Shown here: positions 33,144 through 49,023 of the stretch, one piece after another
Position numbering within the stretch: the stretch's first letter is position 1
Layout of the letters: each line of letters opens with the position of its first letter
Source of the DNA: Okeania sp. KiyG1
GTDB taxonomy: Bacteria; Cyanobacteriota; Cyanobacteriia; Cyanobacteriales; Microcoleaceae
NCBI RefSeq assembly: GCF_014132355.1
Contig: NZ_BLZO01000187.1
Coordinates: forward strand, 62,001 to 126,000
Direction: 5' to 3'
DNA length: 64,000 nt
The notes under the pieces: generated by a model
The model's input: only the letters and a program-made list of their open reading frames with translations
What the model was told of the DNA's origin: nothing
Database searches by the model: none
Program-made: the position numbers and the translations under genes

Positions 33144-34379
33144 GATTGAGAAGAAAGAAGGAAGAGGGAAGAGGGAAGAAGTTCATTAATTGATAATTGA
33201 TAATGGATAATTGATAATTACCTCTGGTTAAAACCGCTACGGAATTGAATATAAGGAAATATTATTTCTTCTCTTGGTTGATTGGATATGGCGAGGGGAC
33301 CTCGCCATCCCTCAACCGCTTTTTCCCCTTAAAAGGGAGGCTTTAAACCAGAATTATTTAATTATTAGTAATTAATAATTAATAATTCGGTAAGAGGAAA
33401 AGGTAGAAGGGAAAAGGAAAAAGAAAAAGTATTAGAGTGGAAGAGGAAAAAATCTAGTATTTTCCAAGTTTTAAGCTTTATTTTTCTATGTCAAATATAG
33501 TCATGGCAAATGCTTTTTTAATATCAGTTTGTAATATCAAGTCTCATTAATTAGCCCGTGGTAAAAATGTTTTATCTGATAAAATTTTCCCTGTTCCCTA
33601 TTTCCTGTTCCCTATTCCCTATTCCCTATTCCCTATTCCCTATTCCCTGTTACCGAATAATTAAGATTTAAAGCCTCTTCTTTCAAGGAGAAACAAGAAA
33701 AAATTTTCCTTTGAGTCAATCCTCTTCTTTTAAAGGAGAGGTAATTAATAATAATTAATTATTAATAATTAATAATTAATTGTTTAACTTACCTACTTTT
33801 AGAGAATGAAAACCAATAAAAATTAGCAGTTGTTGTCAAACTTAAAAAAAGTAAATTTATTTTATGATTATTAGCGATTTCAGCCACTTTGCCGATTTTA
33901 AATTAGATAAAGTTATCTTCTTTTCTGCTTTTTATTTAAACGATAGTCATCTGATTTTTTGACTACAGAAATATTCATCTTAGAAGCTTTTTTGCAGTTT
34001 TTTTCAAAGTTTTCAATAAATCTTTTTCTTTAATAGGTCTTAAATACTGCTTGAATAAATCTTTTTCTAAACTCATTGCTTGACTTGAACTCTACAAAAT
34101 CTATTTTAGCTCATAGAAGAAGGAAGAAGGAAGAAGGAAGAGGGAAGAAGGAAGAAGGAAGAAGGAAGAGGGAAGAAAGGAAAGGAAGTAGGAAAAGAGA
34201 AAAGGGAAAAATCTGGTGTTGTCTGAGTTTTATAGAACCCATTTGAGATTTATTGAAAAAGAGATGGGGAGATGGGGACTATTTTTCAACCTTTTTCTCT
34301 TATACCAATATGGGAATTGCTATAGACAGTTGTCATAAATTACAATATAATACAAGTAATACAAAATATAAGGACTCAG
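33144..34379. repeat. 1.2-kb gene-poor region with dispersed and tandem repeats
   Basis: 33215-33395 is a full member of the TTACCTCT ... CGGTAA family, and 33650-33752 is an inverted member (starting GTTACCGAATAATTAAG). 33595-33655 contains CCCTATT heptamers, 34120-34175 GAAGGAA heptamers. On the minus strand around 33960-34085 there are two short open stretches (33 and 21 codons, Lys-rich) that may be debris of a lost gene. I would not call them genes. Confidence 0.6.
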
Positions 34380-34743
34380 ATGGCACGACTAAATCAAATT
34401 ATTGCGATTGAAAAAGGAATCAAAAGTCGGTCAGTGCAGGAACTAGCAGAAGCTCAAAAAGCTTTGCAGAAACCTGCTTTACTTTCCGGCATTTCTCGAA
34501 CCTATCGCCCCAAGGATGAGGAGGGAGAACAACTCCCACCAGAGTCGAAAAGGGTGGAAGTTAAAGCAGAAGAGATTATCCGTAAAACCTCCGAGGTATT
34601 AACTAAGTTGTTTGATGTGACGGCAACAAAAGATTGGACAAACTGTACCGCCCGAGCTGATGTGGTGGTGGATGGTCAAACATTGTTGACTCAAGCTCCG
34701 GTTAGTTATCTACTTTTCCTAGAAAAGCAGTTTGCAGACTTAC

Positions 34744-34978
34744 CGAAAAATTGGGTTTAAAGCCTCGCCCTTGTAGGGCGACTTTTTATTTTATGTTAAG
34801 TGAATTGAATATATGCTATAGTGTTATTAGTTGCCGGGGGGCACTCGGAAACTCTAAACGGACGTGGAGGCAAGCGTCAGACTACTGCCAAAGTAGCAGC
34901 AGCCTGTGAGACGTCAACCCACCGAGGAGCTAAGGCTCGGTAGGAATCCCCGTGCCTTTAGGCCGGGGAGGATGTCAA
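34744..34978 (+). mobile_element. Non-autonomous IS608-like (IS200/IS605) element, 235 bp
   Basis: The left flank ends in TTAC (34740-34743) and the element ends in TCAA (34975-34978), exactly the left and right cleavage tetranucleotides known for IS608. The left-end hairpin is CGCCC-TTGTA-GGGCG (34766-34780). The right-end hairpin is CCCCG-T-GCC-TTTA-GGC-CGGGG (34949-34968), followed by AGGATGTCAA. The interior retains a stretch equal to the last codons of tnpB and the region that encodes the omega RNA, but no transposase. The same ends bound the longer element at 37621-39081. Confidence 0.85.
34830..34978 (+). ncRNA. Predicted omega (guide) RNA region of the 235-bp element
   Basis: In TnpB systems the omega RNA overlaps the 3' end of tnpB and the right end of the element, and its guide lies just outside. 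Here 34830-34978 aligns by eye with the corresponding part of the longer copy (CGGACGTGGAGGCAAGC, GTAGCAGCAGCCTGTG, CGTCAACCCACCGA, then the terminal hairpin). The expected guide would start at 34979, i.e. the interrupted gene itself. Without a TnpB in cis it could only work with one supplied in trans. Confidence 0.5.
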
Positions 34979-35260
34979 GGTCTTTTATTAAGAAATTGCC
35001 TGTTCTGGATGCGACAGATACTTGGACATTTGACGAATCTTCAGACTGTTGGGCAACGGAACCAGTCCAAACTTTGCGAACTTTCAAAACTCCCCGTAAC
35101 CACGTTAAGGCTGAAGCAACGGAACATCATCCCGCACAAGTGGAGGTATATTATGAAGATGTGACTATTGGATATTGGCGGACGGTAAAATTTTCAGGTG
35201 CTTTGCCTGCACGTCGGGTTAATGAAATGTTGGAAAGGTTAGAAAAACTTTCTCAAGCTG

Positions 35261-35482
35261 TTAAGTTTGCTCGTGAAGAATCCCCACGTTGCTTGTCCGA
35301 GGCCAAATGTGCTTGCAATCCAAGCAGTAATAGTTAATCCAACCTTCCTGGATATTATTGCTGCCACATTTTGGACAAAGTAAATTACGGTAAAAATCAA
35401 AAATCGTCATCCTCCATCTCAATTGAAGGTCGAATTTGGAATTCAAGTGTTTTTGACAAAAAATTTTCAATATCTTTAACAC
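35261..35482 (-). CDS. Small zinc-ribbon protein
   Basis: The 73-residue product contains CPKC ... CLDC with 14 residues between the pairs (LLCPKCGSNNIQEGW then NYYCLDCKHIW), a treble-clef/zinc-ribbon pattern like the N-terminal finger of IS1-type transposases or small phage regulators. The GTG start at 35482 is uncertain; an ATG at 35410 gives a 49-residue version starting MTIFDFYRN. Its 3' end overlaps the tail of the convergent interrupted gene by 77 bp, which lowers confidence. Confidence 0.4.
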   Translation of the reverse strand: MLKILKIFCQKHLNSKFDLQLRWRMTIFDFYRNLLCPKCGSNNIQEGWINYYCLDCKHIWPRTSNVGILHEQT

Positions 35483-35530
35483 AAAGACGATGACGCTTCA
35501 TTTCTCTCAATAACCTTTTATCCCTTTCTT

Positions 35531-35734
35531 TTAATAAACTCTCTGTATTTTTAAATTACTCTCATTTTCCTTAATTTGATACTCTATTTTTCCTATGTAC
35601 CTAAAAACTCCCCAACTGCCAACAATTACAACTGCAAAAGTAGATATCATGCCAATAGTGACAACTGTTTCTGGTGGCATTTTTTGAATTTTATTGATAA
35701 CTTTATATAACGCTAATTCTTTGGAAAAATACAA
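35531..35734 (-). CDS. Small single-pass membrane protein
   Basis: This 67-residue protein has one transmembrane helix (VVTIGMISTFAVVIVGSWGV, residues 24-43) flanked by a Lys-rich N-terminal part and a charged C-terminal helix (IEYQIKENESNLKIQ). In a prophage-like setting, with a peptidase gene in the same island, it could be a holin or spanin-like protein, but nothing in the sequence proves that. It is the last gene of the minus-strand run. Confidence 0.5.
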   Translation of the reverse strand: MYFSKELALYKVINKIQKMPPETVVTIGMISTFAVVIVGSWGVFRYIGKIEYQIKENESNLKIQRVY

Positions 35735-35785
35735 TTCAAATATTTTTCCTTAAATTCTATTCGTTAAAAAAATAATTCTATTTCA

Positions 35786-36162
35786 CTATGGCTCTATATA
35801 TTCCCAGATAGACAAAGTTATTTCGCTCATTCTTGTAGGAACAATAAACTTTAAAGAATAACTAACTTTAGTAGGTAATTGAATTAAAGTTTTATTATTA
35901 ATTTTGAGATTTTGGTTGTAGGCAATAACATTAGTGTCAATATTAGGAATGTTAATTAATACTTCCAAATACGCACCCAACCACCAATAACTAGGAACAG
36001 TGGGGTTAAAAGGTTGCACTACAATATCAGAATTTTGAAAGGTAATAGGAATTATAATTGGGTCAATAGGATAATATTGATTTGGTGTTTTATAAACAGC
36101 TTCATATTTTTGATAAAACTTAAAGCCCAATTTTCACTATTAACTATTGTTTGGTCAATCAT
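35786..36162 (-). CDS. Island protein of unknown function with an apparent frameshift near its start
   Basis: The main ORF (35786-36130) begins with TTG and has a stop directly upstream. The natural start is probably the ATG at 36162-36160, which overlaps the TGA of the upstream gene (ATGA, typical translational coupling). From that ATG the frame reads MIDQTIVNSE and then needs one additional base near 36132 (an A4 run) to enter the main frame at KLGFKFYQKYEAV. The product would be about 125 residues, beta-rich (PIIIPITFQNSDIVVQPFNP), without recognisable domain. The frameshift may be real decay or a sequence error. Confidence 0.5.
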
Positions 36163-36782
36163 TGACTTCGTTTAATTGAAGCCATAACACTATTTTTTCC
36201 TAAAATAAGACTAGCTGTGCCATTAGTTCCCATAACTGAAGCTAAAGGCCCAATGGGCGCGGTTTGGCTGAATTGCGCAATAAACCAATCGTAAACATCG
36301 TCAAAGCTCGGAGTTCCTGTTAAAGATGGATTAAACCCAAAAGGGATTAATCTGTGGGATTGCCCGTCACTTTCTTCGCTGTAATCTCTTATCCAACTGG
36401 TACCCCATTCTGTTTTTTGTCTAGTTGGAGTGCCTACACCATGAACAATTAGCACTCTGGCATATTTGGTTGTGGCGTATTTATTTGAAACTTTTGCAGC
36501 ATTTTTAATATCGGCGTTATAAGGCAAACAGCCAATTTTTGCCAATCCTGCTGCATCAATAGTTTTGCAAACTTTTTCAATAGATGCTACTGTGTCTCGG
36601 ACTATGTAATATAGTTCTGTTGGATCTTTAAAAGACGGCACCAAAACATCTATAGTTTCGCCTTGAGGAGTATAAGTAGTTTGTTTATTGGGGTCTGCTC
36701 GTCTAGCAACTAAAGCTTTTAATTTTCTTTCTTCTTGAGCGATTTTTTCGGATAAATATATTGAGTCTTTGATTTGTCCCAT
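36159..36782 (-). CDS. Island protein of unknown function, paralogue of its upstream neighbour
   Basis: This 207-residue protein opens with a charged helix (EKIAQEERKLKALVARR) followed by a domain with QGETIDVLVPSFKDPTELYY, EWGTSWIRDYSEESDGQ and SHRLIPFGFNP. The neighbouring 194-residue product has the same order of motifs (VTYYVPSLTDPEELYIKV, LTPWGTRVVDYNNEIAGQKS, RQLPIGG), so the two are paralogues from a tandem duplication. Both look like virion or surface structural proteins by composition, but I do not recognise the family. Its stop overlaps the start of the next gene. Confidence 0.6.
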   Translation of the reverse strand: MGQIKDSIYLSEKIAQEERKLKALVARRADPNKQTTYTPQGETIDVLVPSFKDPTELYYIVRDTVASIEKVCKTIDAAGLAKIGCLPYNADIKNAAKVSNKYATTKYARVLIVHGVGTPTRQKTEWGTSWIRDYSEESDGQSHRLIPFGFNPSLTGTPSFDDVYDWFIAQFSQTAPIGPLASVMGTNGTASLILGKNSVMASIKRSQ

Positions 36783-36797
36783 TTTTTTAATTAAATT

Positions 36798-37382
36798 TCA
36801 TGCTTCTAAATTTTTACTATCAATAACAGAGTTATCTACGCCCAAAAGGTAAACAGCACATGGTTTAGCGGTGGAAACAATTTCGCTATCTATTGTTCTC
36901 CAAATCAAATTTATGTCTTTCATATTAGCGCCACCTATAGGAAGCTGACGGCTCTTTTGACCAGCTATTTCATTGTTGTAATCAACTACTCTAGTTCCCC
37001 AAGGCGTAAGCCTTGCTACTGCAGTAGCTCGTTTGTGTTCGACTTTAATGCTGCAATAATGGTTAGAAAAACCACGTTGAGGAGCAGAAGCTTTATTTGC
37101 TGGTAAATTTAACGTTCCGCCAATGCTTGTTAAGTTAATTTCTTCTGCTCCGCCTAAAATTTGTATAAGACTCGTTTCAGGTACAGATACTTTTATATAA
37201 AGTTCTTCTGGATCGGTGAGGGAAGGTACATAATATGTAACCATATCGCCTTTACCTTGATAAGCTGTGGTAGCTCCTTGCTCAATTTGTTGTTTTAAAG
37301 CATTGTCTTTGTACTCTTCTCTTTTTTTAGCTATAGCTGTTTGTCGCTTTAGTCTTACAAGCTTTGTTGATAATCTAGCCAT
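36798..37382 (-). CDS. Island protein of unknown function, paralogue of its downstream neighbour
   Basis: This is a 194-residue protein with a basic N-terminal helix (ARLSTKLVRLKRQTAIAKKR) and a globular part sharing the PSLTDPEELY and TPWGTRVVDY blocks with the 36159-36782 product. Only 15 bp separate the two genes, in the same frame, as expected of a recent tandem duplication. A perfect 18-bp palindrome lies 60 bp upstream (37442-37459) and may control this pair. Function unknown. Confidence 0.6.
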   Translation of the reverse strand: MARLSTKLVRLKRQTAIAKKREEYKDNALKQQIEQGATTAYQGKGDMVTYYVPSLTDPEELYIKVSVPETSLIQILGGAEEINLTSIGGTLNLPANKASAPQRGFSNHYCSIKVEHKRATAVARLTPWGTRVVDYNNEIAGQKSRQLPIGGANMKDINLIWRTIDSEIVSTAKPCAVYLLGVDNSVIDSKNLEA

Positions 37383-37441
37383 ATATTTTTGTTGGTTAGT
37401 TATCTTTTATTTTTAGCTTAAAAACTACTGGGTTTTACGCT

Positions 37442-37459
37442 AGATAGGTATACCTATCT
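37442..37459. promoter_or_regulatory. Perfect 18-bp palindrome upstream of the paralogue pair
   Basis: AGATAGGTATACCTATCT is its own reverse complement. It lies between the stop codon of the interrupted gene (37470-37472) and the ATG at 37382, in the only sizeable spacer of this minus-strand run. This is consistent with an operator for a dimeric regulator, though a terminator-like stem cannot be excluded. No second copy was seen in the island. Confidence 0.4.
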
Positions 37460-37620
37460 GAGCATTTTTTTACAAATTTACAAGGTTAGGTAAAATTTCC
37501 CCTTTATCACTGATTAAAGTTATTAATTGTGGCCATTTATGCAGGAAAATTGTGGCGTATTGAAATTTTACATCTGCTATAGGTCTGTGACGTGGTTCTG
37601 TAATTTGTTTTCCTAACACA

Positions 37621-37800
37621 TTGACATCCTCTCCGGCGGTCAGGCGCGGAGATTCCTACTGAACCGTAGCTCTTCGGTGGGTTGACGTTTTGCTAGCGCA
37701 AAGCTCCGCTAACACAGGCTGCTGCTACCTTGACGCTAGTCTTATGCTTGCCTCCACGTCCGTTTAATGTCTCGGACTGCCCGCCCGCGACTAATATATT
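37621..37800 (-). ncRNA. Predicted omega RNA region of the longer element
   Basis: This region overlaps the 3' end of the tnpB pseudogene and runs to the right end, ending in the terminal hairpin and TCAA. It shares GACGTGGAGGCAAGC, GTAGCAGCAGCCTGTG and CGTCAACCCACCGA with the 235-bp element. An additional TTAGCGGAGCTTTGCGCTAG palindromic insertion is present here only. Any guide would derive from sequence beyond 37620, within the interrupted gene. Confidence 0.45.
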
Positions 37801-38447
37801 GATTGCTGCATTCTCGTCTCTGTCGTGTTTGCTGCTACAGTTGAGACACTCCCATTCTCGCACCTTCAGGTCTAGCTTCCCACCTTTAAAGCCACAATTT
37901 GAGCAAACTTGAGAGGTAGGTTCAAGGGCGACTAATTACTCTAAAATCGCGACCATATTTTTCTGCTTTTCCTTCTAAAAAAGTCCTGAATGTTCTCCAG
38001 CCTAAATCAGAAATTGCTCTGGATAATTTACGGTCTCTTGGTGCGCGTTCCGCAAGCGAGCTGGCGTCGTCGCGGGGTCGCACCGCTTTTTCACCATACC
38101 AGAAACGTTGTTATACTTCTAAAACAACTGTTTGGTTTTCACGAATTATTTCAGTAGATAATTTATGTAGAAAATCTGTCAAGCGTATCTTTCAGCGTGG
38201 CATAGAATTTAGCTACTCTAATCCTGGCTTTTTCATACCTTTTAGAGCCTTTAGTTTTATGAGATAATGACAAACTTTACCTTTCTTAACTTCTTAATTC
38301 GTTTCTTTAGTGGTTTTGGTGCATCAATCTTTGTACCGTCACTGAATGTAGCAAAGGTTTTAATACCTAAATCTATACCTACTGAATTATCAGTTTTAGG
38401 TAAGATTTCTGGTTGTATTTCTACTACAAAACTTAAGAAGTATCTAT

Positions 38448-38475
38448 GTAGGGGCGAACGGCCGTTCGCCCCTAC
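38448..38475. repeat. 28-bp perfect palindrome inserted in tnpB (A)
   Basis: GTAGGGGCGAACGG followed by its exact reverse complement. On the tnpB strand it is translated in frame as VGANGRSPL between VTVIKD and RYFLSFVVE, a place where intact TnpB proteins have continuous sequence. Confidence 0.85.
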
Positions 38476-38690
38476 GTCTTTGATTACTGTTACTGATGAT
38501 GGAGCAGCAGGTAACTCTCTTGACCATACTATTTTCAGCTTTCCTATCTTTGCTAAATAGACTTTATGTTGACCAATTTTAAATCCTCACGAGTGTAAAC
38601 CTAGCAGTTTGTTTTGATTTCCTGGTTTTGAATTTAGGAGGTTTAATAGGTCTACCTTTTCTCTCACCTTTTGTCGATTTAAAAAAGTTT

Positions 38691-38718
38691 GTAGGGGCAA
38701 ACGGCCGTTTGCCCCTAC
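38691..38718. repeat. 28-bp perfect palindrome inserted in tnpB (B)
   Basis: GTAGGGGCAAACGG followed by its exact reverse complement. It differs from palindrome A by one symmetric pair of bases. Read with tnpB it gives RRGKRPFAPT between LQQSLNDLN and FFKSTKGERK, again without a stop. Confidence 0.85.
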
Positions 38719-39269
38719 GGTTTAAATCATTCAAAGATTGCTGTAATGGTATAGCAGAAACTTCTGATAACCATTCTCTGTCTTCAGTATTTTTCGATTG
38801 AGTGATAAACTGTTTTTGTAGCTGAGAATTATTGGGTTTCTTTTCTCCCGATCTATACTTTTCTTGACAACAAGCTAGGCTATCATTCCAAACCACACGG
38901 ACACAACCAAATAGCTTTGCGCTCTCGGTATTTTTGTCCCAGTGTGGGATAGATACGATACTTAAATCTAGCTTTCATAATTTGACTCTTAAACTAACAA
39001 TATGATAACATATTTCTTGAAATAAAATCAACTACTAAAAAGTCGCCCGCTTATGGGCGAGGCTTTAAACCCAATTTTCTGGTAATTTGCTTGGGTATAG
39101 TAGGGTAATTTATTTCTGGCTCTTCTGGTATATTATTTTTAAAAAATTTTGATTTATATGTGTGGCCTTGAATTGAAATAATTTTACTTACAATTTCTTT
39201 TGCTACAGGTTTATTTCGACACAATAATTGAAGTTGATAACCGTTTGACCAATCATGGTAAGAGTACAT

Positions 39270-40079
39270 TTATTTGCCTTTTTTCCAAATATAACCACCA
39301 TTATTCCAAAACAAAGATTTAATTTTAGTAGCTAAATTGTTCAAATCAGCTTTAGTAATTTTTGGCAAAGACGATTCTGGATCATCTGTTTTATCCATTA
39401 ATCTAAAGCTTATTTCTCCAGCAACAGGAGAATAACCAGGCTCTACATCTGCCATATCTTCCAAGAAATGCAAAAATACTCTTGGCTGAGTCCGTCGCGC
39501 AATGCGGTCTGGTGGAATGTAAGGCATAGTATTATTAATAGCTTCAACTGCCCGCATTCTGTCTAGCAACTGTTGCCTTAGTTCTATATAAGTACCCGCT
39601 AAAATCTCTGAATCAGATTCAACAGTCCGGTCTTTCCAGAACCGAATCACCATATATCCCCTTTCCCTAGCTTGCTCTTTAGTAAGCAAGTTTAACTTTT
39701 TAGGTCTGTTAGCTACTTCTTTCCCCCAAGGTTTTAATTTACTCGCTGCTGGTTTTTTAGCAGAAGGCAGATTTTTTTGGAATTCATATTCAAAGTCTTC
39801 AAACCATTTCTCAAAATCTATTGTGAATCCCAGGCGATCGCCTAACATATCATGGCCAGCTTTTAAAAGGCTTGACTGCTGAATAATGGATGATTCCGGG
39901 CCAATCAGATAATACCTTTGTATTTGGTCCAAATCCTTGTTTGGTGTAAATTGATACGCATCAATATTGGCCTGCTCAAATATTTCTCCACTACCAACAC
40001 TCCCACTAATTACTGTTGCTTTGTGAATATTGGAAATTTCCTCTAATATCTGCTTTTCCCAGTTATTTTGTGCTGCCAT
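39270..40079 (-). CDS. Island protein of unknown function
   Basis: This is a 269-residue protein with no hydrophobic segments. It opens with an acidic helix (AQNNWEKQILEEISNIHKAT), has a central basic region (AKKPAASKLKPWGKEV and NRPKKLNLLTKEQARERGY), and ends with FRLMDKTDDPESSLPKITKA and LFWNNGGYIWKKGK. The last motif runs straight, through an in-frame TAA, into MYSYHDWSNGYQLQLL of the next gene. The two could be one ancestral protein, since a GGYxWxKGK ... YSYxDWxxGYQL succession looks like one continuous domain. Composition suggests a structural or DNA-associated role; no family is recognised. Confidence 0.6.
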   Translation of the reverse strand: MAAQNNWEKQILEEISNIHKATVISGSVGSGEIFEQANIDAYQFTPNKDLDQIQRYYLIGPESSIIQQSSLLKAGHDMLGDRLGFTIDFEKWFEDFEYEFQKNLPSAKKPAASKLKPWGKEVANRPKKLNLLTKEQARERGYMVIRFWKDRTVESDSEILAGTYIELRQQLLDRMRAVEAINNTMPYIPPDRIARRTQPRVFLHFLEDMADVEPGYSPVAGEISFRLMDKTDDPESSLPKITKADLNNLATKIKSLFWNNGGYIWKKGK

Positions 40080-40084
40080 ATTTT

Positions 40085-41044
40085 TTATGAAGTGACAATT
40101 TGAATTGAGTCACCGAAACCTTGCCACAGGCCAGAGCGAACACCTTTACTAAAGTTGAGGATTCTTTCGTCCTTAATAATAGTTTTTTCCAGCTTATTTA
40201 CCCCATCTTCCAAACTCCACGGTTCATTGTCCTCATCTCCCCATTTAGCGATCGCCTTATCAAGACCAGGTATTAACTTCTTAACTCCGTCGGGAAAACG
40301 TTTCCACAGCTTTTTTATTGCCCTTCTACCATGCAAAAATGCGTATTTTATCGCGATTTGCAAACCCGTTTGAATACCTTGATAGGCAAAGTTTGAAACG
40401 TTTTGAAGCAGCTCTTGTCTTAACTCTGGTTTAAGCTGCCAAACCAAAGCCATTGTTCTTAAATTTATTTGAACTTTAGGCGGTGAGTTTAATCCACCTA
40501 CTGCTATAGTTGCAATTTGTCGTCCTATAAATTCTCCTGCGGGACCGTAAAGATTATTAACAGCGGTTTTAATATCTTCTAGTATCCGTTTGTCTGAGAT
40601 TTGAATATCAAATTCATACAAATTTTCAGCAGTAGTTAAAATTCCAGTAGCTAATCCTCCCAGACCACCTCCCACTACTAATGAACCGCCAACACCAAGG
40701 GAACTTACCGCTGCACCTACACCACCTGTCACCCATCCTACAGTTGCACCACCAACAAGCAGAAGTGTCCCAGCAGCTAAACCAGTCGCCACGGTTCCTG
40801 CTGCTGCTGCTAAAGGATCGTCTTTTGCCCATTGGCTGAAAATTTTACCAAACGTACCTTTTTGAATACTTTCTACTAAAGCTTTACCACCTTCTACAAC
40901 TTTATTCAAAAAGTTCCCTGCCGACACTACAGGTTTTTTTGCTAATTCAGCCAGCGGACTACCAATTTGTTTAAGCCAAGTCAGGTCTACAGGTTCTTCA
41001 CTTGTAATAGCTGAGGATAAAGTTGCTGCTGCTATAAATACCAT
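40085..41044 (-). CDS. Island protein with a glycine-rich hydrophobic core
   Basis: The central part (about residues 75-140) is strongly hydrophobic and Gly/Ala-rich (AAAAGTVATGLAAGTLLLVG, GGVGAAVSSLGVGGSLVVGG) with the look of glycine-zipper membrane hairpins. It is followed by a soluble, basic C-terminal half (YAFLHGRRAIKKLWKRFPDG). Such proteins occur among phage tape-measure, ejection or pore-forming toxin-like proteins; which of these applies cannot be decided. The ATG at 41044 overlaps the stop of the upstream gene by one base. Function unknown. Confidence 0.6.
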   Translation of the reverse strand: MVFIAAATLSSAITSEEPVDLTWLKQIGSPLAELAKKPVVSAGNFLNKVVEGGKALVESIQKGTFGKIFSQWAKDDPLAAAAGTVATGLAAGTLLLVGGATVGWVTGGVGAAVSSLGVGGSLVVGGGLGGLATGILTTAENLYEFDIQISDKRILEDIKTAVNNLYGPAGEFIGRQIATIAVGGLNSPPKVQINLRTMALVWQLKPELRQELLQNVSNFAYQGIQTGLQIAIKYAFLHGRRAIKKLWKRFPDGVKKLIPGLDKAIAKWGDEDNEPWSLEDGVNKLEKTIIKDERILNFSKGVRSGLWQGFGDSIQIVTS

Positions 41045-41448
41045 TATTTCTTGCTTTTACTATTTTTTTGACCACCTCCAAATCCTTTAGAGCCAGGAGT
41101 AGCAATGTCTACTTTTTTCTTTGTACTAACTTTTTTCAACTCTGGCTGTTGGTCTTTATCCGTTTTGGTTTGCTGTTTCACATTTGTCATGCCAGAAAAA
41201 TCATTCTCTAATTGTTGTCTATAGGTTTTTAAATCCTTACTTCCGTCTGTTCCTCCAGCATATTGCATATCTCTAATCATTAATGCTCGCTCTCCATATT
41301 GCATGGCAATTAATCCTTGTAATCTTACTTCCAATAAGTCAGATATTGCCTGGACTTTTTCCTCTGGAGTTCTGGGATTGGATGTTTGAGAAGCGTTATT
41401 AAAATTTGGATTACCGTAAGGTCTAGTTTTATATTGTTTGATTACCAT
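41044..41448 (-). CDS. Small basic island protein
   Basis: This 134-residue protein has a disordered N-terminus (KTRPYGNPNFNNASQTSNPR), a central helix (EEKVQAISDLLEVRLQGLIA) and a Lys-rich tail (VSTKKKVDIATPGSKGFGGG, then QKNSKSKK). No family is recognised. The gene is packed with no spacing between its neighbours (stop overlaps the next start; 3 bp from the previous stop), so it belongs to the same transcription unit. Confidence 0.6.
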   Translation of the reverse strand: MVIKQYKTRPYGNPNFNNASQTSNPRTPEEKVQAISDLLEVRLQGLIAMQYGERALMIRDMQYAGGTDGSKDLKTYRQQLENDFSGMTNVKQQTKTDKDQQPELKKVSTKKKVDIATPGSKGFGGGQKNSKSKK

Positions 41449-41451
41449 ACT

Positions 41452-42069
41452 TTAATTTTCCAACCATTTTAAAATATTATCTTTGATAAGATTAAAACCC
41501 TGCTTTGACAAATTACCAAATTTATCAATATAGTTTCTTTTGTTGTAATTATTTAATGGCGATAAATCTACTATTCTGTCAAATTCAGTCAACATTTGTA
41601 TTGCTTTATTCGGCAAATTTAATTGTTTATCGTAATAATGCGCTCTTACTGGAAGTAATACTATCTTAGGGTTTTGTTGATAATAATAGTCAATCATTTG
41701 CATCCAGTTTTCAAAAAGAAAATCTATATCGCTTACTGACAAATTCTTCCACCATTCATCATTGTAAAACCCTTTGCTATCAGGTTTATGACGATAAGAG
41801 GTTGTGCGTAAATCAATATCTTTTCTTTGTAAATTTTTGATAAATTCAATTTCTTTACAACCAGCTAAGGGATAGGTGCAATGAAAAAATATTACATCAA
41901 AAGTTTCGTATCTACGAAACGCCTGCTTGATAGAACTGTCATTAATGGGCAATCCATCAACTTTATGTTTAATACTGTCATTTAAGTAAATCGAATTTTG
42001 AGCAGAACTATCTCCGAAAAACATAAAAGTTTTATTTTTCAATGATTTGCTCAATGTTACTAATGTCAT
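41452..42069 (-). CDS. Possible SGNH-hydrolase-like island protein
   Basis: The product starts with a strand and FMFFGDSSAQNSIY, reminiscent of block I (GDS) of SGNH/GDSL hydrolases, has IFFHCTYPLAG and KIVLLPVRAHYYD strands, and ends NYIDKFGNLSKQGFNLI where block V (DxxH) is expected. The His is replaced, so activity is doubtful. The length of 205 aa fits the family. The match is weak and by shape only. The start overlaps the upstream gene by 38 bp; an internal ATG at 42024 would avoid the overlap. Confidence 0.5.
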   Translation of the reverse strand: MTLVTLSKSLKNKTFMFFGDSSAQNSIYLNDSIKHKVDGLPINDSSIKQAFRRYETFDVIFFHCTYPLAGCKEIEFIKNLQRKDIDLRTTSYRHKPDSKGFYNDEWWKNLSVSDIDFLFENWMQMIDYYYQQNPKIVLLPVRAHYYDKQLNLPNKAIQMLTEFDRIVDLSPLNNYNKRNYIDKFGNLSKQGFNLIKDNILKWLEN

Positions 42070-43780
42070 TTTGATTTAGAGCCTCAATTAAAGTAGGTTC
42101 ATCATCATTATACCCCTCATAACGAAAGGTTTGAGTTGAGGATTGAACAAACTTAGGTAAAAGAGTTTCCAGTTTTTCTTCAGTATTTAAAACTTTCTCT
42201 GTGACTTTTTCAACTTTTTTACCTTTTCTCTTTTTAGTAACTTTATTTTTATATAATGCTTGAATATTAAAAGGCATTGTTATTTTGAATGACTTGTCCT
42301 TCAATGGCATTCCTAAAAATACCATAATATCTCGGATACTTTTGGTAGCTTCTGTTGTTATCCTGGTAATCTGAGACAAGGCTATACCAAATGCTCCTAA
42401 TATTCTCAGGATAGCTTCGTTATTAGTATCGTTTTTATAGCTATTTTCCAATATTTGTTTAATGGCTGCATGAGCATTTACAGTTTTTGTGTTCAAAGCT
42501 TGTTTTCCGGCTTTAAGTAAATTAGCATCGCTAATTTCGGCTTTGACTGGATGTATACCTAAGTGATCGCCCATTCTTACTAAAAATTCGAAGATTTTTA
42601 AGTAATTTGTAGCTAAATAATAGCCCTTTCCTTCCATAGAAATTAATCTATTAGGAGCTGAAAAACCTTCATCAATCAACTCGTCAGGTGCCAATACATC
42701 ATAAATTTCCTCAATCATTTTACAGCATCTTTTATCCATATCTTCATCCTCTGGATCATCTTTTTTCTCCCCACCATTATAGTTAATTCCTTTTCTCGTG
42801 GGAAAGCCTTTTTCAGTTATGCGATAATCTTGCAAATCCATCTTAGGATAAGTATATTTGTAATTATAAGCATCAGGTCTGCCTTCTACTGGATAAGTGA
42901 AATAGAAATCCTCTAGCTCTTCTTGTACTTTATTGCTTCTTCTCATCCACCTTTGTATTTGCCATTTTTCGCCTTTCAAGAATATGTCATTAATACGGAG
43001 TGCAGAATCAACAAAATTGAATCTATAACGCCAACGTAGAACGTCATTAATATTAAGAACTGGAATAGTGCGAGTATCAGATGATGTCCTTATTCGTGGA
43101 TATCCTGGTCTTACCAACATCCTTGGGTAGCCAGAAACTGGCTGATAATACCTTTCTTCCAAGTTATACAAGTTGAAACTTACTGTAGCAGATTCTTTAT
43201 AACGTTCAACGCTTGTTATTTGACCTGAATAACTAGAATACTGATCGATCATGCTTCCGGTAAACAGTCCTTGAAAATTACAAGTTCCGCTTCTTCTGTT
43301 AACATCCATAGTCAGCAACCAATATCCGTAATCCCATAGCTCACCTGGTAAGTTAGCTTCTACTTCTCCTTTTCTTTCCGACGGTCTTTCTCCTTCCGGT
43401 GGTAATTTCTTCTGCTCTTTCTCCTGTTCCTTTTCCTCGTCACAATCAGGAATTTTTCTAACTTCCGTGTGAGTTACTTGTCCAGCAATCTTGTAAGTCA
43501 ATACTACGGTACACTCATCGCGCGCGCTTTCAATCTCATACAAACCAAAAGCATAACTAACTTTGGAGTTGTTTAATTCCCCTAAATCTAACTCTACTGC
43601 AGCAATCCCAATTCCTAGAGAAATTTTTATGCCATCAGCACCGAAAATCACAGACGCTCCAATCCCCGCCTTTTCCCACCCAAGAGTAACCTCCCCTCCT
43701 TGGGCATCAACTTCAAAATTTTCAGACAGCCCTTTTCCTTGTCGCTTTTTCCCTTTTCTCCCCGCCCTACCTTTTGCCAT
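42032..43780 (-). CDS. Large island protein of unknown function
   Basis: This 582-residue protein has a very basic start (MAKGRAGRKGKKRQGKG), a beta-rich N-terminal region (GGEVTLGWEKAGIGASVIFG), a charged Glu/Lys linker (EEKEQEKEQKKLPPEGERP), and a central domain (LPGELWDYGYWLLTMDVNRR) followed by aromatic-rich beta sequence (YRFNFVDSALRINDIFLKGE). It ends in an alpha-helical region (KQALNTKTVNAHAAIKQILE). I do not recognise it. Its size, composition and position in a one-direction run suggest a virion-type structural protein, which is inference. Confidence 0.6.
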   Translation of the reverse strand: MAKGRAGRKGKKRQGKGLSENFEVDAQGGEVTLGWEKAGIGASVIFGADGIKISLGIGIAAVELDLGELNNSKVSYAFGLYEIESARDECTVVLTYKIAGQVTHTEVRKIPDCDEEKEQEKEQKKLPPEGERPSERKGEVEANLPGELWDYGYWLLTMDVNRRSGTCNFQGLFTGSMIDQYSSYSGQITSVERYKESATVSFNLYNLEERYYQPVSGYPRMLVRPGYPRIRTSSDTRTIPVLNINDVLRWRYRFNFVDSALRINDIFLKGEKWQIQRWMRRSNKVQEELEDFYFTYPVEGRPDAYNYKYTYPKMDLQDYRITEKGFPTRKGINYNGGEKKDDPEDEDMDKRCCKMIEEIYDVLAPDELIDEGFSAPNRLISMEGKGYYLATNYLKIFEFLVRMGDHLGIHPVKAEISDANLLKAGKQALNTKTVNAHAAIKQILENSYKNDTNNEAILRILGAFGIALSQITRITTEATKSIRDIMVFLGMPLKDKSFKITMPFNIQALYKNKVTKKRKGKKVEKVTEKVLNTEEKLETLLPKFVQSSTQTFRYEGYNDDEPTLIEALNQNDISNIEQIIEK

Positions 43781-43794
43781 ACTATCAATTCAAA

Positions 43795-44700
43795 TCAATA
43801 AAATTCTTGAAAAGTGACTCGACCAGCACTTTTATCTCTAATGCAATATAACCTTTGAGGTAAGTAATATTTAGTCGCAGTTTTAATCCAATGATGATTG
43901 CCTCCACCACTCCAAAACGCTTTTTCAAAATCTACACTCAAACTTTCCCTGGGTTCAAGGAACGGCGCATTGACCGAGGCTGCACTTCCGGTGTTTGAAA
44001 ACCTAAAGTATACCCTGCTGTTTGCTTCATTGCACAAATACAACATTTTTCGTGTTGGGCGACTTCCTAGTACAAGAGTGGGAGTGTTTTCAACTATTAT
44101 GCTTCCTGCGTTTTCTGACAAACTTTCTGTCGGCTCAGTTTCAAAGTAGGTGATAGTTCCTGAATAGCCGCCATTAATTTCGGCGATATCAAAATCTCCC
44201 AAAACTCCATCTATACTTACTCCTACCTGATATCGAATATCGCTATACAATATTTCTGCATTTCTGAGTAAGTAGGGGTCAAAAAGATTGAGATACCCAT
44301 ATTGACCCAAGTTATAAAGAAATTCTCCCGCTTTTGGCATTCCCCAATCTTCACTTCCCCACTTGGTATGAATCATCAGTTCAACGGCGTGCTTTGATTT
44401 AACGTTGAATTTTCGCTTGAAATCGAAATACTTGGTTTGCTTCTGTAAATTTGTTTCGCGTAACTCGTTTACTTTGGGTAAATTTTCTGAATTAATCTTA
44501 CTAAGGCTTGTAATATAATAGTCGCATTGTAAATATTCTAGTTGACCTTTGAATACATAGTCAATACTGTTCTGTGGTTGGTGAAATTGAGCGATTGCTG
44601 CCCAATTTATCAATGTCATGATTTCACCAGGCACAGTATCTTTATTCAATCTCAGTGGTCGAATATGACCACAGATTTCCCGTTTAACTCCTTCTCTCAT
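43795..44700 (-). CDS. Island protein with a beta-sandwich-like C-terminus
   Basis: The frame is open from 44799, but the ATG at 44700 avoids a 92-bp overlap with the upstream gene. The 301-residue product (MREGVKREICGHIRPLRLNK) contains an aromatic central domain (TKWGSEDWGMPKAGEFLYNL, YGYLNLFDPYLLRNAEILYS). Its C-terminal module reads RKMLYLCNEANSRVYFRFSN, APFLEPRESLSVDF; this arrangement of strands resembles small carbohydrate- or tail-associated beta-sandwich modules of phage proteins. The resemblance is structural intuition only. No family name can be given. Confidence 0.55.
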   Translation of the reverse strand: MREGVKREICGHIRPLRLNKDTVPGEIMTLINWAAIAQFHQPQNSIDYVFKGQLEYLQCDYYITSLSKINSENLPKVNELRETNLQKQTKYFDFKRKFNVKSKHAVELMIHTKWGSEDWGMPKAGEFLYNLGQYGYLNLFDPYLLRNAEILYSDIRYQVGVSIDGVLGDFDIAEINGGYSGTITYFETEPTESLSENAGSIIVENTPTLVLGSRPTRKMLYLCNEANSRVYFRFSNTGSAASVNAPFLEPRESLSVDFEKAFWSGGGNHHWIKTATKYYLPQRLYCIRDKSAGRVTFQEFY

Positions 44701-44707
44701 CTTGCAA

Positions 44708-45193
44708 TCAAAAACCCCCAAGCGTAAAAGTGCCACCTTGCTCGGGTGTCTCAGTGTTAGGTTGATAATCGGTGATAATACAGGTATCGCCAAAACCACT
44801 AAAAGTGTTAGTCGCAGTAAATCGACCGACTAAAAGATTGTAGTAAGGTTTTACCTCCAGAGTGCCTCCAGATACGCTGTCAGTCTTTCCACCATAGGTG
44901 AAACACTCCCCTAAATCACCTTTTCCGCTCAATAAAGTAGGAACATCTATGTTCAAAAAATTATGAATTCCCACATGAAATAGCATCCTTAACAATTCAT
45001 CAAACTTGATAAACTGCATTTCTATCTTGTTACCAATAAAGCTAGTACTGCTAGTGCTGACGTTAAAAGAAATTTTTTTTCCTGGGGTGAACCCATTGAT
45101 TACAAATATTTTATATCCAGGTATAAAATCGTCATGCGGTATGTGTTCGCAGACAAGACCGGAGCAGTTTACCCTGATGAATTGCAGCCTCAA
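44708..45193 (-). CDS. Island protein of unknown function (5' end uncertain)
   Basis: The frame is open for 161 codons with a TTG at 45193 as the only candidate initiator before Met58, and that start overlaps the divergent gene at 45134 by 60 bp. The content is beta-rich (KISFNVSTSSTSFIGNKIEM, CFTYGGKTDSVSGGTLEVKP, YYNLLVGRFTATNTFSGFGD). It is the first gene of the minus-strand run. The true start could be a non-canonical codon near 45130. Function unknown. Confidence 0.5.
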   Translation of the reverse strand: MRLQFIRVNCSGLVCEHIPHDDFIPGYKIFVINGFTPGKKISFNVSTSSTSFIGNKIEMQFIKFDELLRMLFHVGIHNFLNIDVPTLLSGKGDLGECFTYGGKTDSVSGGTLEVKPYYNLLVGRFTATNTFSGFGDTCIITDYQPNTETPEQGGTFTLGGF

Positions 45194-45640
45194 CTAAACC
45201 CAACAGTTAATACCTTTTACTATCGGCAGCTTTCAAGGTTAGACAACTTGTTCCAAATCACAGGTAGTTATGTGGCAAGGAACATTCAGCAAATTCCTGT
45301 CGCGACATTGAATGACTATAATACTGCCAACGGCACAACTTTCACCCAAGAAACAATGGAAAAGCTGATTTTACCAATCACCAATGGAAACAGTACGGAT
45401 GTTCCACTAACTTTAGCAGCAGAACATGAGTGGAGGAACCTTGACAATGGGAGTGTAATTGAATGGCTGGAGCCATTTGCTGCAGCATGGAGAGCGACTT
45501 CAAAATATATTGACTTTAAATATCAAAAAGGTCAATACGCAACACTTTTTGGAAATACTTTGGAGTGGGATATTAAAGTAAGTTTCCAAGGTCTAGTACA
45601 TCTAACAAATGAGGAAGTTGCTGCCCTCGCTGGCGGTTAA
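45134..45640 (+). CDS. Island protein of unknown function
   Basis: This 168-residue protein is transcribed away from the minus-strand run. It reads MRYVFADKTGAVYPDELQPQ, then NNG-rich beta segments (ATLNDYNTANGTTFTQETME, EWRNLDNGSVIEWLEPFAAA) and ends VSFQGLVHLTNEEVAALAGG. An AGG 14 bases upstream is a weak ribosome site. Composition suggests a structural component, but no family is recognised. It is followed by an inverted repeat and the C39-like peptidase gene. Confidence 0.6.
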   Translation: MRYVFADKTGAVYPDELQPQLNPTVNTFYYRQLSRLDNLFQITGSYVARNIQQIPVATLNDYNTANGTTFTQETMEKLILPITNGNSTDVPLTLAAEHEWRNLDNGSVIEWLEPFAAAWRATSKYIDFKYQKGQYATLFGNTLEWDIKVSFQGLVHLTNEEVAALAGG

Positions 45641-45652
45641 ACAGTTTAAAAG

Positions 45653-45688
45653 GGTGTCTAGTGACTTGTCTAGTAGTGACTAGACACC
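45653..45688. promoter_or_regulatory. Inverted repeat GGTGTCTAGT/ACTAGACACC
   Basis: GGTGTCTAGT (45653-45662) and ACTAGACACC (45679-45688) flank a 16-base loop that contains TGTCTAGTA. The same core (TGTCTAGTA ... TACTAGACA) recurs in the spacer 52015-52058 of this island. It could be a terminator for the gene ending at 45640 or a shared operator. Confidence 0.45.
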
Positions 45689-45832
45689 AAGTTAACAAGT
45701 ACTTATAATCCAATAATAATCAGTGTTTGACTTTTAGAAAAAGGAAAAGTCAAGCTTCACAAACTGCCAAGGTTAATAGCCAAGACTGCTTGGTGTCTTG
45801 GTAGTTCTTAGTTGAAACAGGAAATATTAATC

Positions 45833-46330
45833 ATGAAACTTTCAGTTCCTTACTATTCCCAGATAGATAACAGAGTTGATTGGTGGAGGACTTGCAATGC
45901 TTCTTCAATAGCTATGTGCTTGAAGTTCCTCAAACCTGAAGCCATCTCCGGTGATGATGATTATATCGATCGCCTGGCTGGTTATGGAGACACCACAGAC
46001 CATTTTGCTCACACTCGCTTGCTTGCAGATTTAGGAGTAAACAGCGAATGGAAAACCGACTTAAGTTATGCAGATTTGGACGCTCAACTAGATAGAGGTA
46101 AGCCTGTTCCCATAGGTGTGTTACACAAGGGGACTTTGAATTATCCTACTGGAGGCCATATTTGCGTAGTAGTAGGCAAAGAAGCTGGTGGTTATATTTG
46201 TCATGACCCTTGGGGGCATGGTTTTAGCTACAACGACCACAATGGTAAGGATTGCTATTATCCTTATCAGAGTCTTGACGCTAGGTGGTTGGTTGAGGGA
46301 GCAAATACAGGATGGGGAAGGATGTTTTAG
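45833..46330 (+). CDS. C39-like papain-fold peptidase (probable lysin)
   Basis: This 165-residue single-domain cysteine peptidase is of the C39-like type seen in bacterial and phage lysins. SVPYYSQIDN opens it, WWRTCNASSIAMCLKFL carries the catalytic Cys in the first helix, TGGHICVVVGKEAGGYI supplies the His, and HDPWGHGFSYND the Asp. No signal peptide is seen, so release would need a holin-like partner (perhaps the small membrane protein at 35531) or lysis. The frame is open from TTG 45812, but I chose the ATG at 45833, where the conserved KLSVPYYSQ begins. Substrate, peptidoglycan stem or bridge, is inferred from the family. Confidence 0.8.
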   Translation: MKLSVPYYSQIDNRVDWWRTCNASSIAMCLKFLKPEAISGDDDYIDRLAGYGDTTDHFAHTRLLADLGVNSEWKTDLSYADLDAQLDRGKPVPIGVLHKGTLNYPTGGHICVVVGKEAGGYICHDPWGHGFSYNDHNGKDCYYPYQSLDARWLVEGANTGWGRMF

Positions 46331-46396
46331 TAGGAATATTTAAGAGTAGCTTTTAATTAGTAAAAAGTAGCCTTGTTCTTGAGGCACTTGTGCTAA

Positions 46397-46984
46397 TTAT
46401 AAAGTTTCCAGCACTTTAACTACTTCTGCCGGGGAGACATCTATATATTCCTGCAATGTTTGAATTGATTTGTGTCCGGTTATTTGTTGGATGGTTGCTA
46501 GGGGATGACCTTCCCTAGACAATCTGGTAATCAATGTCCGTCGCGGACTGTGTAATGAAAAGCCACGACGGCTCAACCCAGCAACTACCAAAGCTGACCT
46601 AAATGCCTCATCGTAACTTTGCCTTTTTAAGTGGTGTACGCCATTCGCTTTATTAGGGAATAGCCAACCTGATAATGGTGGATAATAATTGTGCAGCTCG
46701 GCAGCCAGTGCCCTACTTATTGGTATTTGTCTAGTTGCTCGTGTACCATCTGGAGTGGCTTTCCTGGTTGATGCTCGGTAAGTTATTTCACGATGGGGAA
46801 ATGATTGGATGGCATCTAGATAAACATCACTGACTTTTAACTGCAATACTGCACCGATTCTTTCTCCGGTATATCTAAGTATTTGCCAGATTAATTTGTG
46901 ATGTTTGGATTTGAAAGCTGAGTAGATTTTTTCAAATTCTTGATTGGTTAAAATTTCAGCTTTTCCGTGTCCTTTATTTTTCAC
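46397..46984 (-). CDS. Short tyrosine recombinase/integrase
   Basis: This is a 195-residue site-specific recombinase consisting only of the catalytic domain. Arg I is in RYTGERIGAVLQLKVSDV, the HxxR box in SLHSPRRTLITRL, the His/Trp position in QQITGHKSIQT, and the nucleophile Tyr in LQEYIDVSP, so the active site is complete. The core-binding N-terminal domain usual in phage integrases is missing. Such short forms are common in cyanobacteria and may act in integration, resolution or host rearrangements. It lies between the C39-like peptidase and the replication-type genes; no att sites could be identified. Start 46984. Confidence 0.88.
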   Translation of the reverse strand: MKNKGHGKAEILTNQEFEKIYSAFKSKHHKLIWQILRYTGERIGAVLQLKVSDVYLDAIQSFPHREITYRASTRKATPDGTRATRQIPISRALAAELHNYYPPLSGWLFPNKANGVHHLKRQSYDEAFRSALVVAGLSRRGFSLHSPRRTLITRLSREGHPLATIQQITGHKSIQTLQEYIDVSPAEVVKVLETL

Positions 46985-47048
46985 CTGCTCGTCCTGCTGA
47001 TTTTGTTAATTATAACTTTTTTAGCAGGTATGGGTGCAGCAGGTCTCA

Positions 47049-47507
47049 CTAGCAAAATTTATAAGGAAGCCTAATGGCGCTAGTTCTAGCAGTTTGGAAG
47101 TACCTTGCTGTTTTATGTAAAACAGCAGGATAAAGATATTTGACAGTAGAAAAGTCCTCGGCTTCGAGGACTAAAAATTCCTTAAGATGTTTGTAAGTAC
47201 CTGTTTTTATATTAACAGATATTTGTAGAATTTGATTCCTAGTTGATTTTTTTAGTTCATCTATCCAGGGGATAAACCAAAATATTAAAGCAAGGTTAAT
47301 AGTGAATTCGTAGAGGATATTTTTCAGATCGGATTTGAATGTGTAGACAACACAAAAGTCTAAGTCCTTTTCAGCTCTTTCCCTGACTTTTACCATACCT
47401 TGGTATTTATCCTCAACCCACAATTGCTGAAAGTCTGATTGCTCCTTCCCTTCTAGTAAATTATTGGTTAAGCTGGATAATATAAAAGCAGCTATCTGCA
47501 GTTGACT
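47049..47507 (-). CDS. Unknown protein or C-terminal part of the upstream gene after an in-frame TGA
   Basis: Directly after the TGA that ends the upstream gene (47508-47510) the same frame continues open for 152 codons (SQLQIAAFILSSLTNNLLEG ... SAIRLPYKFC). The only usual initiator is a TTG at 47423, giving 124 residues. One hydrophobic segment is present (LYEFTINLALIFWFIPWI). It is either a separate small gene or the second half of a ~378-residue protein broken by a single nonsense change. Function not recognised. Confidence 0.45.
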   Translation of the reverse strand, partial: SQLQIAAFILSSLTNNLLEGKEQSDFQQLWVEDKYQGMVKVRERAEKDLDFCVVYTFKSDLKNILYEFTINLALIFWFIPWIDELKKSTRNQILQISVNIKTGTYKHLKEFLVLEAEDFSTVKYLYPAVLHKTARYFQTARTSAIRLPYKFC

Positions 47508-48185
47508 TCACATGACTGCCTCATTAATTCCCAAGTAAATTAATAGTCTGCGGTCTTTACCATCAAAATTAGCTAAAGCATATTCGAGCATCTCACCTGC
47601 TATTTTTGAACCATAGAATAAGTGGTTGTGGGTGGTGAAGTTGCCAATATTTTCCTTAGATATCCAGTGACTTTTATCTGCTAATGCTGCCTTGATGCAG
47701 TTGCCATAAAGACTTTGGCATTCCATCCTAGCTGTATCCTGGAACATTCCATCAAAGGTAAAGTGTTCCAGCCTGTCAACAAACCACTTTATTAAACTAT
47801 CGTTCAAGGTATCGCCCAAGCCTTCTAGGGTTGCTGGCTTTTCAAATATTGCAGAAGATTTGATTAGTTTTACGAGGTTAGGTTTTAATAGGTTAATTCG
47901 TTGAAGTCTGGCTACATCGTCAAGTATATATCTTTGAGATTTATAATATTGATTCTTTTCAAAACATTTACTTGCTTCAGGGATGGAAATTTTCTCAGAA
48001 TGATCCCAAACAAAAATCTTTGACTCTTCATCTCCTTCAAATCGGGGTAAACCAGGGTAGCTGACCAGTTTAACTTCCTTCCTAGAGTGTGGACATACAC
48101 AAATTAATTCTTGATAACTATTGGGGTCTACTTCCTCAGCATCTATTAATTGACCACATAATAATAATGATTCAGCGTATTTCAT
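47508..48185 (-). CDS. Unknown island protein with an N-terminal Cys-containing domain
   Basis: The 225-residue product begins MKYAESLLLCGQLIDAEEVD and has an ELICVCPHSRKEVKLV segment followed by FVWDHSEKISIPEASKCFEK. This is faintly like the start of CoiA-type nuclease proteins (a zinc/Cys strand and an H-rich stretch), but not enough for a call. The 3' end is a TGA with the frame open beyond it. It overlaps the upstream gene by 14 bp, a sign of coupling. Function unknown. Confidence 0.55.
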   Translation of the reverse strand: MKYAESLLLCGQLIDAEEVDPNSYQELICVCPHSRKEVKLVSYPGLPRFEGDEESKIFVWDHSEKISIPEASKCFEKNQYYKSQRYILDDVARLQRINLLKPNLVKLIKSSAIFEKPATLEGLGDTLNDSLIKWFVDRLEHFTFDGMFQDTARMECQSLYGNCIKAALADKSHWISKENIGNFTTHNHLFYGSKIAGEMLEYALANFDGKDRRLLIYLGINEAVM

Positions 48186-49023
48186 TGACCCTACTCCCTA
48201 ATAAATATTCTTTGATTTGACTAATTGGATAATTCTCTTTAATGAGATGTTTAATTTCTGGTAATGTTCTTGCTGAAACTTCTGTTTTATCCACCATCCA
48301 TTTGCAGATATGATGGCAATAATAGTAAGTTATTGTTCCGTCCTTGTGGGGGCGATTGTCTATCCACCCACTGGCAGGAATTGTGTTTTTTGCACCTCTA
48401 GGTCTACCAGGCTTTTTCTTTAGTTTAGCCGTGGGAGGAAATATTAGTTTTTCATGGGGTTGCGTTGTTTGCAATATTTCCTCCCGTGGTGGTGCAATAT
48501 TTCCTCCCGCGATTTCAGGGCGGTTTTTAGTAATAAATTCTTGCTCTAATTTTAGGAGGGTGTTTCTATCAGGTTTAGTGATGGGGATAATGTTTTGTAG
48601 GAGGTCTCTTAGCTTATGCTCCATGATTCTTTCTCTTTCTAAAAAGCGGTATAGTTGGTCGTCTGGTTCTTCTACTGTACCGATTTTTCTGCAAGATTTT
48701 TTGAGTTTTTCTTTGTGCAGTTTTAGGTGAGTTTTTACTTTTAATACCCTACTTGCTGATAGAGATATTTGCTCCGGGATGAGTAAAGTATCACATCTTT
48801 TACTGTTAGGTTGGTCTACCCATACCATCATTCCTTCCCCCTTGGTTCTCCAGTAGGGGAAGGGTGGGGGAACTAACTCTAGCTCATTGATGCTGATAAG
48901 TTGTTCGGGGGGGCCGGGAAAGTAGGCAACCTGTAGGTGTTGGTGGTAGTGGTTGAGTTGGAATATTTTCCCACTAAATTCCCCGGTGGTTATTTTGGCA
49001 AATTGTTGATGCAGGATTTTCAT
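48172..49023 (-). CDS. AT-hook-containing protein of unknown function
   Basis: This 283-residue protein has a small N-terminal beta domain (SGKIFQLNHYHQHLQVAYFP), a basic helical middle (RVLKVKTHLKLHKEKLKKSC), an AT-hook (KKPGRPRGAKNT, about residues 203-214) and a C-terminal aromatic domain (DGTITYYYCHHICKWMVDKT) ending in a helix (HLIKENYPISQIKEYLLGSR). The AT-hook implies binding to the minor groove of AT-rich DNA, consistent with an accessory replication or regulatory role in this island. It is preceded by a terminator-like hairpin at 49037-49058. Confidence 0.6.
   Translation of the reverse strand: MKILHQQFAKITTGEFSGKIFQLNHYHQHLQVAYFPGPPEQLISINELELVPPPFPYWRTKGEGMMVWVDQPNSKRCDTLLIPEQISLSASRVLKVKTHLKLHKEKLKKSCRKIGTVEEPDDQLYRFLERERIMEHKLRDLLQNIIPITKPDRNTLLKLEQEFITKNRPEIAGGNIAPPREEILQTTQPHEKLIFPPTAKLKKKPGRPRGAKNTIPASGWIDNRPHKDGTITYYYCHHICKWMVDKTEVSARTLPEIKHLIKENYPISQIKEYLLGSRVNEIR

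Follow-up and report, generated by a model that had tools for sequence, protein, structure and literature searches.

We analysed a 64,000-nt stretch of Okeania sp. KiyG1 (assembly GCF_014132355.1, contig NZ_BLZO01000187.1, positions 62,001-126,000, forward strand), referred to below as the window, and found in it two insertions that belong to one IS608-type IS200/IS605 family inserting after TTAC. Both are ordinary in kind, and the smaller one, element 1, is by its sequence a palindrome-associated transposable element (PATE) with a putative guide-RNA gene. We lean towards a reading in which element 1 keeps this putative omegaRNA gene and borrows the TnpB protein. The analysis establishes the ends of the family, its insertion sites, a scaffold common to its short and tnpB copies, pairing that is kept within that scaffold and right flanks that differ nearly everywhere. 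The parts of the two elements lie in the window as follows:

34740..34743, plus strand: target tetranucleotide TTAC, also the predicted transposon-associated motif (TAM) of TnpB; retained in the empty sites of six genomes.
34744..34978, plus strand: element 1, 235 bp, ending in TCAA; a non-autonomous IS605 element of PATE type that carries a putative omegaRNA gene (from the sequence and family copies).
34759..34762, plus strand: AAAG, positioned like the left guide tetranucleotide of IS608 as defined in PMC5934647.
34765..34781, plus strand: left-end hairpin, also terminator-like (terminator scan: 1 found, 0.4 expected in shuffles).
34814..34822, plus strand: extended -10-like box TGCTATAGT, pattern TGnTAnnnT.
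34828..34978, plus strand: putative omegaRNA scaffold, 5' end approximate (from scaffold alignments with tnpB copies and from pairing).
34944..34947, plus strand: GAAT at the base of the right-end hairpin, where IS608 has its right guide tetranucleotide (PMC5934647).
34979..34998, plus strand: predicted 20-nt guide from the host flank.
37621..39081, minus strand: element 2, 1461 bp, a tnpB-only element of the same family whose tnpB is broken (from the sequence and copy comparison).
37621..37792, minus strand: putative omegaRNA scaffold end of element 2 (scaffold extraction, row L021).
39082..39085, minus strand: target tetranucleotide TTAC of element 2.

The first-pass annotation had placed element 1 at 34744-34978 on the plus strand and element 2 at 37621-39081 on the minus strand, each after TTAC and ending in TCAA, and these coordinates and ends were borne out. 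Its description of IS608-like insertions with base-exact boundaries is likewise supported, and AAAG and GAAT stand beside the end hairpins of both elements, in accordance with PMC5934647. Element 1 has a hairpin near either end and no protein gene, and it lacks one T that near-identical sister copies have. The left-end hairpin may serve as an intrinsic terminator against host transcription that enters the element. Since neither element contains a Y1 TnpA, both are non-autonomous members of the IS608 group and not complete insertion sequences. Within the broken tnpB of element 2, a 28-bp palindrome is inserted at two places (38448-38475 and 38691-38718); it recurs in many tnpB copies and is translated in frame within one open TnpB (L040). 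Inserts in tnpB are reported in Halanaerobium too (PMC7290912).

Both insertions interrupt genes whose reading frames resume when the element is removed, as had been predicted. The interrupted genes are laid out as follows:

34380..34743, plus strand: DUF7873 host gene 1, part before element 1 (profile match, empty-site flanks).
34979..35280, plus strand: DUF7873 host gene 1, part after element 1; interrupted at 35280 by an island.
39082..39269, minus strand: host gene 2, a small cyanobacterial protein of unassigned role, part before element 2 (homologous loci).
37470..37620, minus strand: host gene 2, part after element 2 (homologous loci).

For host gene 1, the flanks of element 1 adjoin with a gap of 0 in six other genomes (G004, G009, G012, G017, G023 and G035). 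The two pieces, searched separately, are contiguous on DUF7873 (PF25283): the left piece matches positions 1-121 and the right piece, from its second codon, positions 124-223, which leaves space for junction codons only. The family was found in 16 of the 60 genomes searched, KiyG1 included. For host gene 2, the left piece was matched in all 17 named homologous loci and the right piece in 16 (not L224); exactly one codon separates the two matches in 16/16, and read-through is free of stops in 17/17. Empty alleles with a gap of 0 were found for five insertions among the loci retrieved, and the absence of a target duplication agrees with the IS608 group.

The family is abundant in the 10.98-Mb genome of KiyG1 (G000). 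Its end patterns, with at most three mismatches, matched 94 left and 92 right ends there, and the reversed patterns gave 0 matches each. Of the 66 left-right pairs that these ends form, 29 span 225-265 bp, 10 span 312-508 bp and 27 span 1304-1666 bp, and no pair spans less than 225 bp. No partner was found for 28 left and 26 right ends. A scaffold of the element 1 type is present in 34 of the 39 shorter elements (29 small and 5 mid-size), and the other five of the ten mid-size elements have only the ends in common. Five elements of 385-486 bp (L192-L196) have the family ends and a different interior, which is perhaps also RNA-like. Element 1 itself has at least 44 matches in the genome, and eight of them, the window copy included, are 99-100% identical over nearly the full length. 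The eight occupy seven distinct places, L002 and L007 having common flanks, which would suggest recent movement. All copy numbers are lower bounds, because 40 of the 731 element candidates were scored and 150 of the 503 OrfB matches were listed.

We extracted 92 short copies, 32 from KiyG1, 40 from five further genomes (G001-G005) and 20 from five genomes of a second genus, after removing L082, which lies at the same place as L018. The target in front of them is TTAC in 83, TGAC in 6 and TCAC in 1, with 2 not placed, and the right end is TCAA in 91. The right flanks, available at the full 20 nt for 90 copies, comprise 87 distinct sequences, three pairs of copies having common flanks. Element 1 carries the IS608 guide tetranucleotides, and several second-genus copies have GAAA or another sequence instead of GAAT. 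Plasmid and phage collections held no record that spans 80% of element 1, only short end matches. The last 40 bases, at the right end (34938-34978), match plasmids of Klebsiella, Xylella, Serratia and others at 93-95% identity, and the first 50 bases, at the opposite end, resemble sequence of cyanobacterial plasmids and of Pseudanabaena phage PA-SR01 at 85-88% identity; an exact left-end scan of viral contigs gave 0 matches. As sequences, the element ends are widespread.

In its composition, element 1 is the left end of a family member through the box TGnTAnnnT followed by the last 150 bases of a tnpB element. It therefore keeps the putative omegaRNA scaffold and would take its guide from the right flank, much as in TnpB systems, where the excerpts of PMC10278001 describe the right end as the 3' end of the omegaRNA scaffold, the guide as lying outside the element and the 5' TAM as the TnpA target. 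The box is present in all 72 same-genus short copies (12 variants), in 10/10 mid-size elements and in 8/8 full-length elements (extraction of the latter succeeded for 8 of 27 tried), compared with 9% of shuffled same-genus windows. Short forms with several junctions retain the same two parts, the junctions differ between the two genera, and short and tnpB copies are interspersed on a tree with 5 changes of type.

To follow the scaffold across copies, the 92 short copies were reduced to 78 distinct scaffolds by leaving out L156, which is without the scaffold-start motif, and merging identical ones. The short-copy alignment (A2) holds 58 of the 78, leaving out 18 copies of 172-174 nt with a 22-nt insert and the near-duplicates L008 and L116. 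The tnpB scaffold alignment (A1) holds 24 of 28, and 18 scaffolds from 20 further tnpB loci brought the total to 42 tnpB rows. The 22-nt insert lies mid-scaffold, at the same position in short and tnpB copies (as in L015 1501-1758 and further copies of around 258 bp). Pairing was assessed in the 58 short copies over 30 pairs, out of 32 that the fold of the 24 tnpB copies had yielded. The positions paired in 95.8% of cells, compared with 90.3% when partners were shuffled and 33-50% when they were slid; the covariation score was 0.213 against 0.128 for shuffles, and 94 cells were altered on both sides against 32.7, measures on which related sequences can exceed shuffles. The short copies have a putative omegaRNA scaffold at the right end, like the tnpB copies, with kept pairing, two of five covariation measures being weak. 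At one pair of the joint alignment, 44-75, G-C stands in 44 of the 78 distinct short copies (42/59 same-genus and 2/19 second-genus), whereas the 42 tnpB copies have C-G in 41, T-G in 1 and G-C in 0. On a tree of 149 columns and 120 rows built without the two columns of this pair, the swap requires two changes. This compensating swap is more telling than the overall covariation.

The predicted guides agree with sequence at empty alleles. The guide of L143 in G001 matches the corresponding allele of KiyG1 at 20/20 positions after TTAC, and that of L141 in G002 matches its own counterpart in KiyG1 at 19/20. The guide of element 1 matches the G004 allele at 19/20; in these three cases the allele is that of a sister species. 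The guide of L118 in G004 matches G026 at 17/20 with TTAT. The guide of L006 matches a paralogue in the same genome at 15/20, with mismatches at positions 8, 10, 11, 15 and 20, and no perfect self-target was found among the loci retrieved. Potential partner nucleases are also present, since KiyG1 has at least 150 OrfB matches and at least six loci with family ends and an open tnpB of 389-410 residues with a zinc ribbon. These open copies retain D, E and D residues that we take to be the RuvC catalytic ones. Compared with solved structures, the TnpB of L041 has TnpB 8bf8 as its best natural match (E 4e-69), ranked after an AI-designed relative.

Taken together, these observations are consistent with the following process. 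Transcription from the left end of element 1 itself would yield an omegaRNA with the right flank as the guide, and TnpB made elsewhere in the genome would bind the omegaRNA of the short element. TnpB would then cut the TTAC-plus-guide empty allele, whether left by excision or present on incoming DNA, and repair from the element-bearing copy would restore the short element, which in this way would borrow TnpA to move and TnpB to stay. A broader proposal, which we hold tentatively and a little short of even, is that gene-free elements of this kind form a class of guide-RNA parasites. Each would be a whole omegaRNA cassette, with a terminator-like hairpin, a promoter, the scaffold and the end, and would acquire a new guide with each landing, so that a few TnpBs would be programmed by dozens of scattered copies to cut all unoccupied alleles. 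The result would be a homing drive that acts at many sites and has no nuclease of its own. If short elements do use TnpB in trans, selfish homing can proceed without a linked nuclease, and the presence of many gene-free IS605 copies beside decayed TnpA genes would be explained. Natural test pairs are at hand, as in the right flank of L143 and its empty allele in KiyG1. We found no published account of amplified PATEs as guide-RNA genes, though key papers probably lie outside our search and novelty is uncertain.

A number of results weigh against a functional guide RNA used in trans. The box occurs in 12 of the 20 second-genus copies, compared with 21% of shuffled windows, four scaffold pairs are kept in only 63-74% of the second-genus copies, and a sigma-70 scan of element 1 called no promoter at the -10-like box. 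The two covariation measures that kinship inflates least are both weak, with 8 pairs altered on both sides against 6.2 in shuffles (26/500 as high) and 26 further pair types, fewer than the 28.1 of shuffles (497/500 as high). Mean pairwise identity in the scaffold body is 0.854, which is not above the 0.866 of the promoter area and little above the 0.81 of the spacer. Folded by itself, element 1 is not exceptional (z -1.29, 18/200 shuffles as good), 66 of the 114 forks of the tree are open, and Rfam gave 0 matches at E 0.01 for 8 loci, although absence from a library decides little. The source of TnpA is a further difficulty. No intact cognate TnpA was met: among the 15 of 24 own Y1 loci retrieved, none has family ends, save weak 24-base matches in L060 and L064. 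In four of 30 Y1 loci from 12 relatives (L234, L235, L236 and L248), tnpA lies next to the family left end and points towards it, and all four tnpA genes are decayed. Haloquadratum provides a parallel, with strain-specific insertions described even though one strain has only pseudogenes for its IS200-type transposases (PMC3119063).

Several of these points would also follow if element 1 were an ordinary PATE that arose by internal deletion and depends on TnpA in trans for its movement, and in which the scaffold is passive ballast set by the deletion endpoint or by a need of TnpA for a long right end. We regard this as a real possibility, if a rather improbable one: PATEs are already known, conservation in the scaffold does not exceed that in the promoter area, the stricter pair of covariation measures gave a weak result, the folding of element 1 does not stand out, and distant plasmids match the last 40 bases only, as a transposase site would. 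Against it, no element below 225 bp occurs among the 66 pairs, whereas a 52-bp PATE made of the termini only is described in the excerpts on Haloquadratum (PMC3119063); the compensating swap is confined to the short copies, and short forms of several junctions retain the same two parts. The retained RNA could instead serve another purpose, for example sequestering TnpB as a decoy or guiding a TnpB that binds and does not cut. Scaffolds do far outnumber the open TnpB genes of the family that were found, but the presumed catalytic residues are kept in the open copies and the guides match empty sites, as homing predicts, and we consider such a use quite unlikely. That the elements are ancestral parts of the host proteins and no insertions at all is already contradicted by the gap-0 empty sites in six genomes and by uninterrupted homologues of both host genes; no supporting point was found, and its probability is negligible.

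A PATE with a putative omegaRNA gene, the reading that we favour, combines features of several described systems. It resembles IS608 of Helicobacter pylori in the TTAC and TCAA cleavage sites, the AAAG and GAAT guide tetranucleotides and the subterminal hairpins (PMC5934647), as well as in the lack of a target duplication. It differs in that element 1 is gene-free and element 2 has only a broken tnpB, and the family left end stands beside tnpA only in relatives, where the gene is decayed. Element 1, being gene-free with near-terminal palindromes and no target duplication, conforms to the PATEs of Haloquadratum walsbyi, which are gene-free IS605 derivatives with near-terminal palindromes and one of which, HqIRS71, retains part of the tnpB C-terminal region (PMC3119063). 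A PATE-like element of Halanaerobium hydrogeniformans joins 28 nt of left end and 58 nt of tnpB to a 160-nt right end (PMC7290912). Guide RNA goes unmentioned in the excerpts of both papers, and unlike those PATEs the present family is amplified, has a promoter-like box and has had its pairing tested across copies. The ISDra2 TnpB/OMEGA system shares the arrangement of right end, outside guide and TAM noted above (PMC10278001), whereas here the scaffold is carried by an element that lacks a nuclease gene. A TnpB gene drive of plasmid IS elements, described in a preprint (PMC11870625), is similar in putting TnpB cleavage of unoccupied sites to selfish use; there TnpB is carried by the element, and here it would be borrowed.

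Not all of the first-pass annotation held, and it did not recognise the putative TnpB guide-RNA scaffold of element 1 or the large family to which element 1 belongs. It had assigned both elements to the same island and suggested that the island was a favoured target. In G004, however, the sequence corresponding to window positions 34315-35280 runs directly into 54483, so that the 19.2 kb of 35281-54482 have been inserted into the 3' part of the DUF7873 gene and element 1 lies beside it, about 300 bases outside and in the chromosomal gene, whereas element 2 lies inside; the 35280/54483 junction rules out a shared island. Two copies within 5 kb are also not unusual. The 94 left ends include 7 pairs that lie within 5 kb of each other, where 4.2 would be expected, and 12% of 300 random draws reach 7, a density that does not support a local insertion hot spot.

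At the site of element 1 itself, a different IS605-type element has its left end after the TTAC of DUF7873 in G001 (L185 1681-2000). A parallel insertion at the same TTAC was considered and dropped, since the right flank in G001 follows another TTAC in G004, and a deletion between two TTAC sites therefore fits better. In G003, a deletion begins about 10 nt after the TTAC of element 1 (L186 1428-1450); it is possibly the scar of a TnpB cut, though a single case shows nothing.

The island (35281-54482) contains a phage-integrase-like gene at 46397-46981. Of its 13 scanned open reading frames (ORFs), 2 pass the Pfam cut-off, as phage integrase and IS110-type transposase; PHROGs matched 0 of 6 island ORFs, and a PHROGs search with 8 proteins was uninformative. 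Elsewhere in the window, 18410-24362 encodes two neighbouring NACHT proteins with NNH2 domains, the second of which also has HEAT repeats, a pair that presumably resembles STAND-type defence genes.

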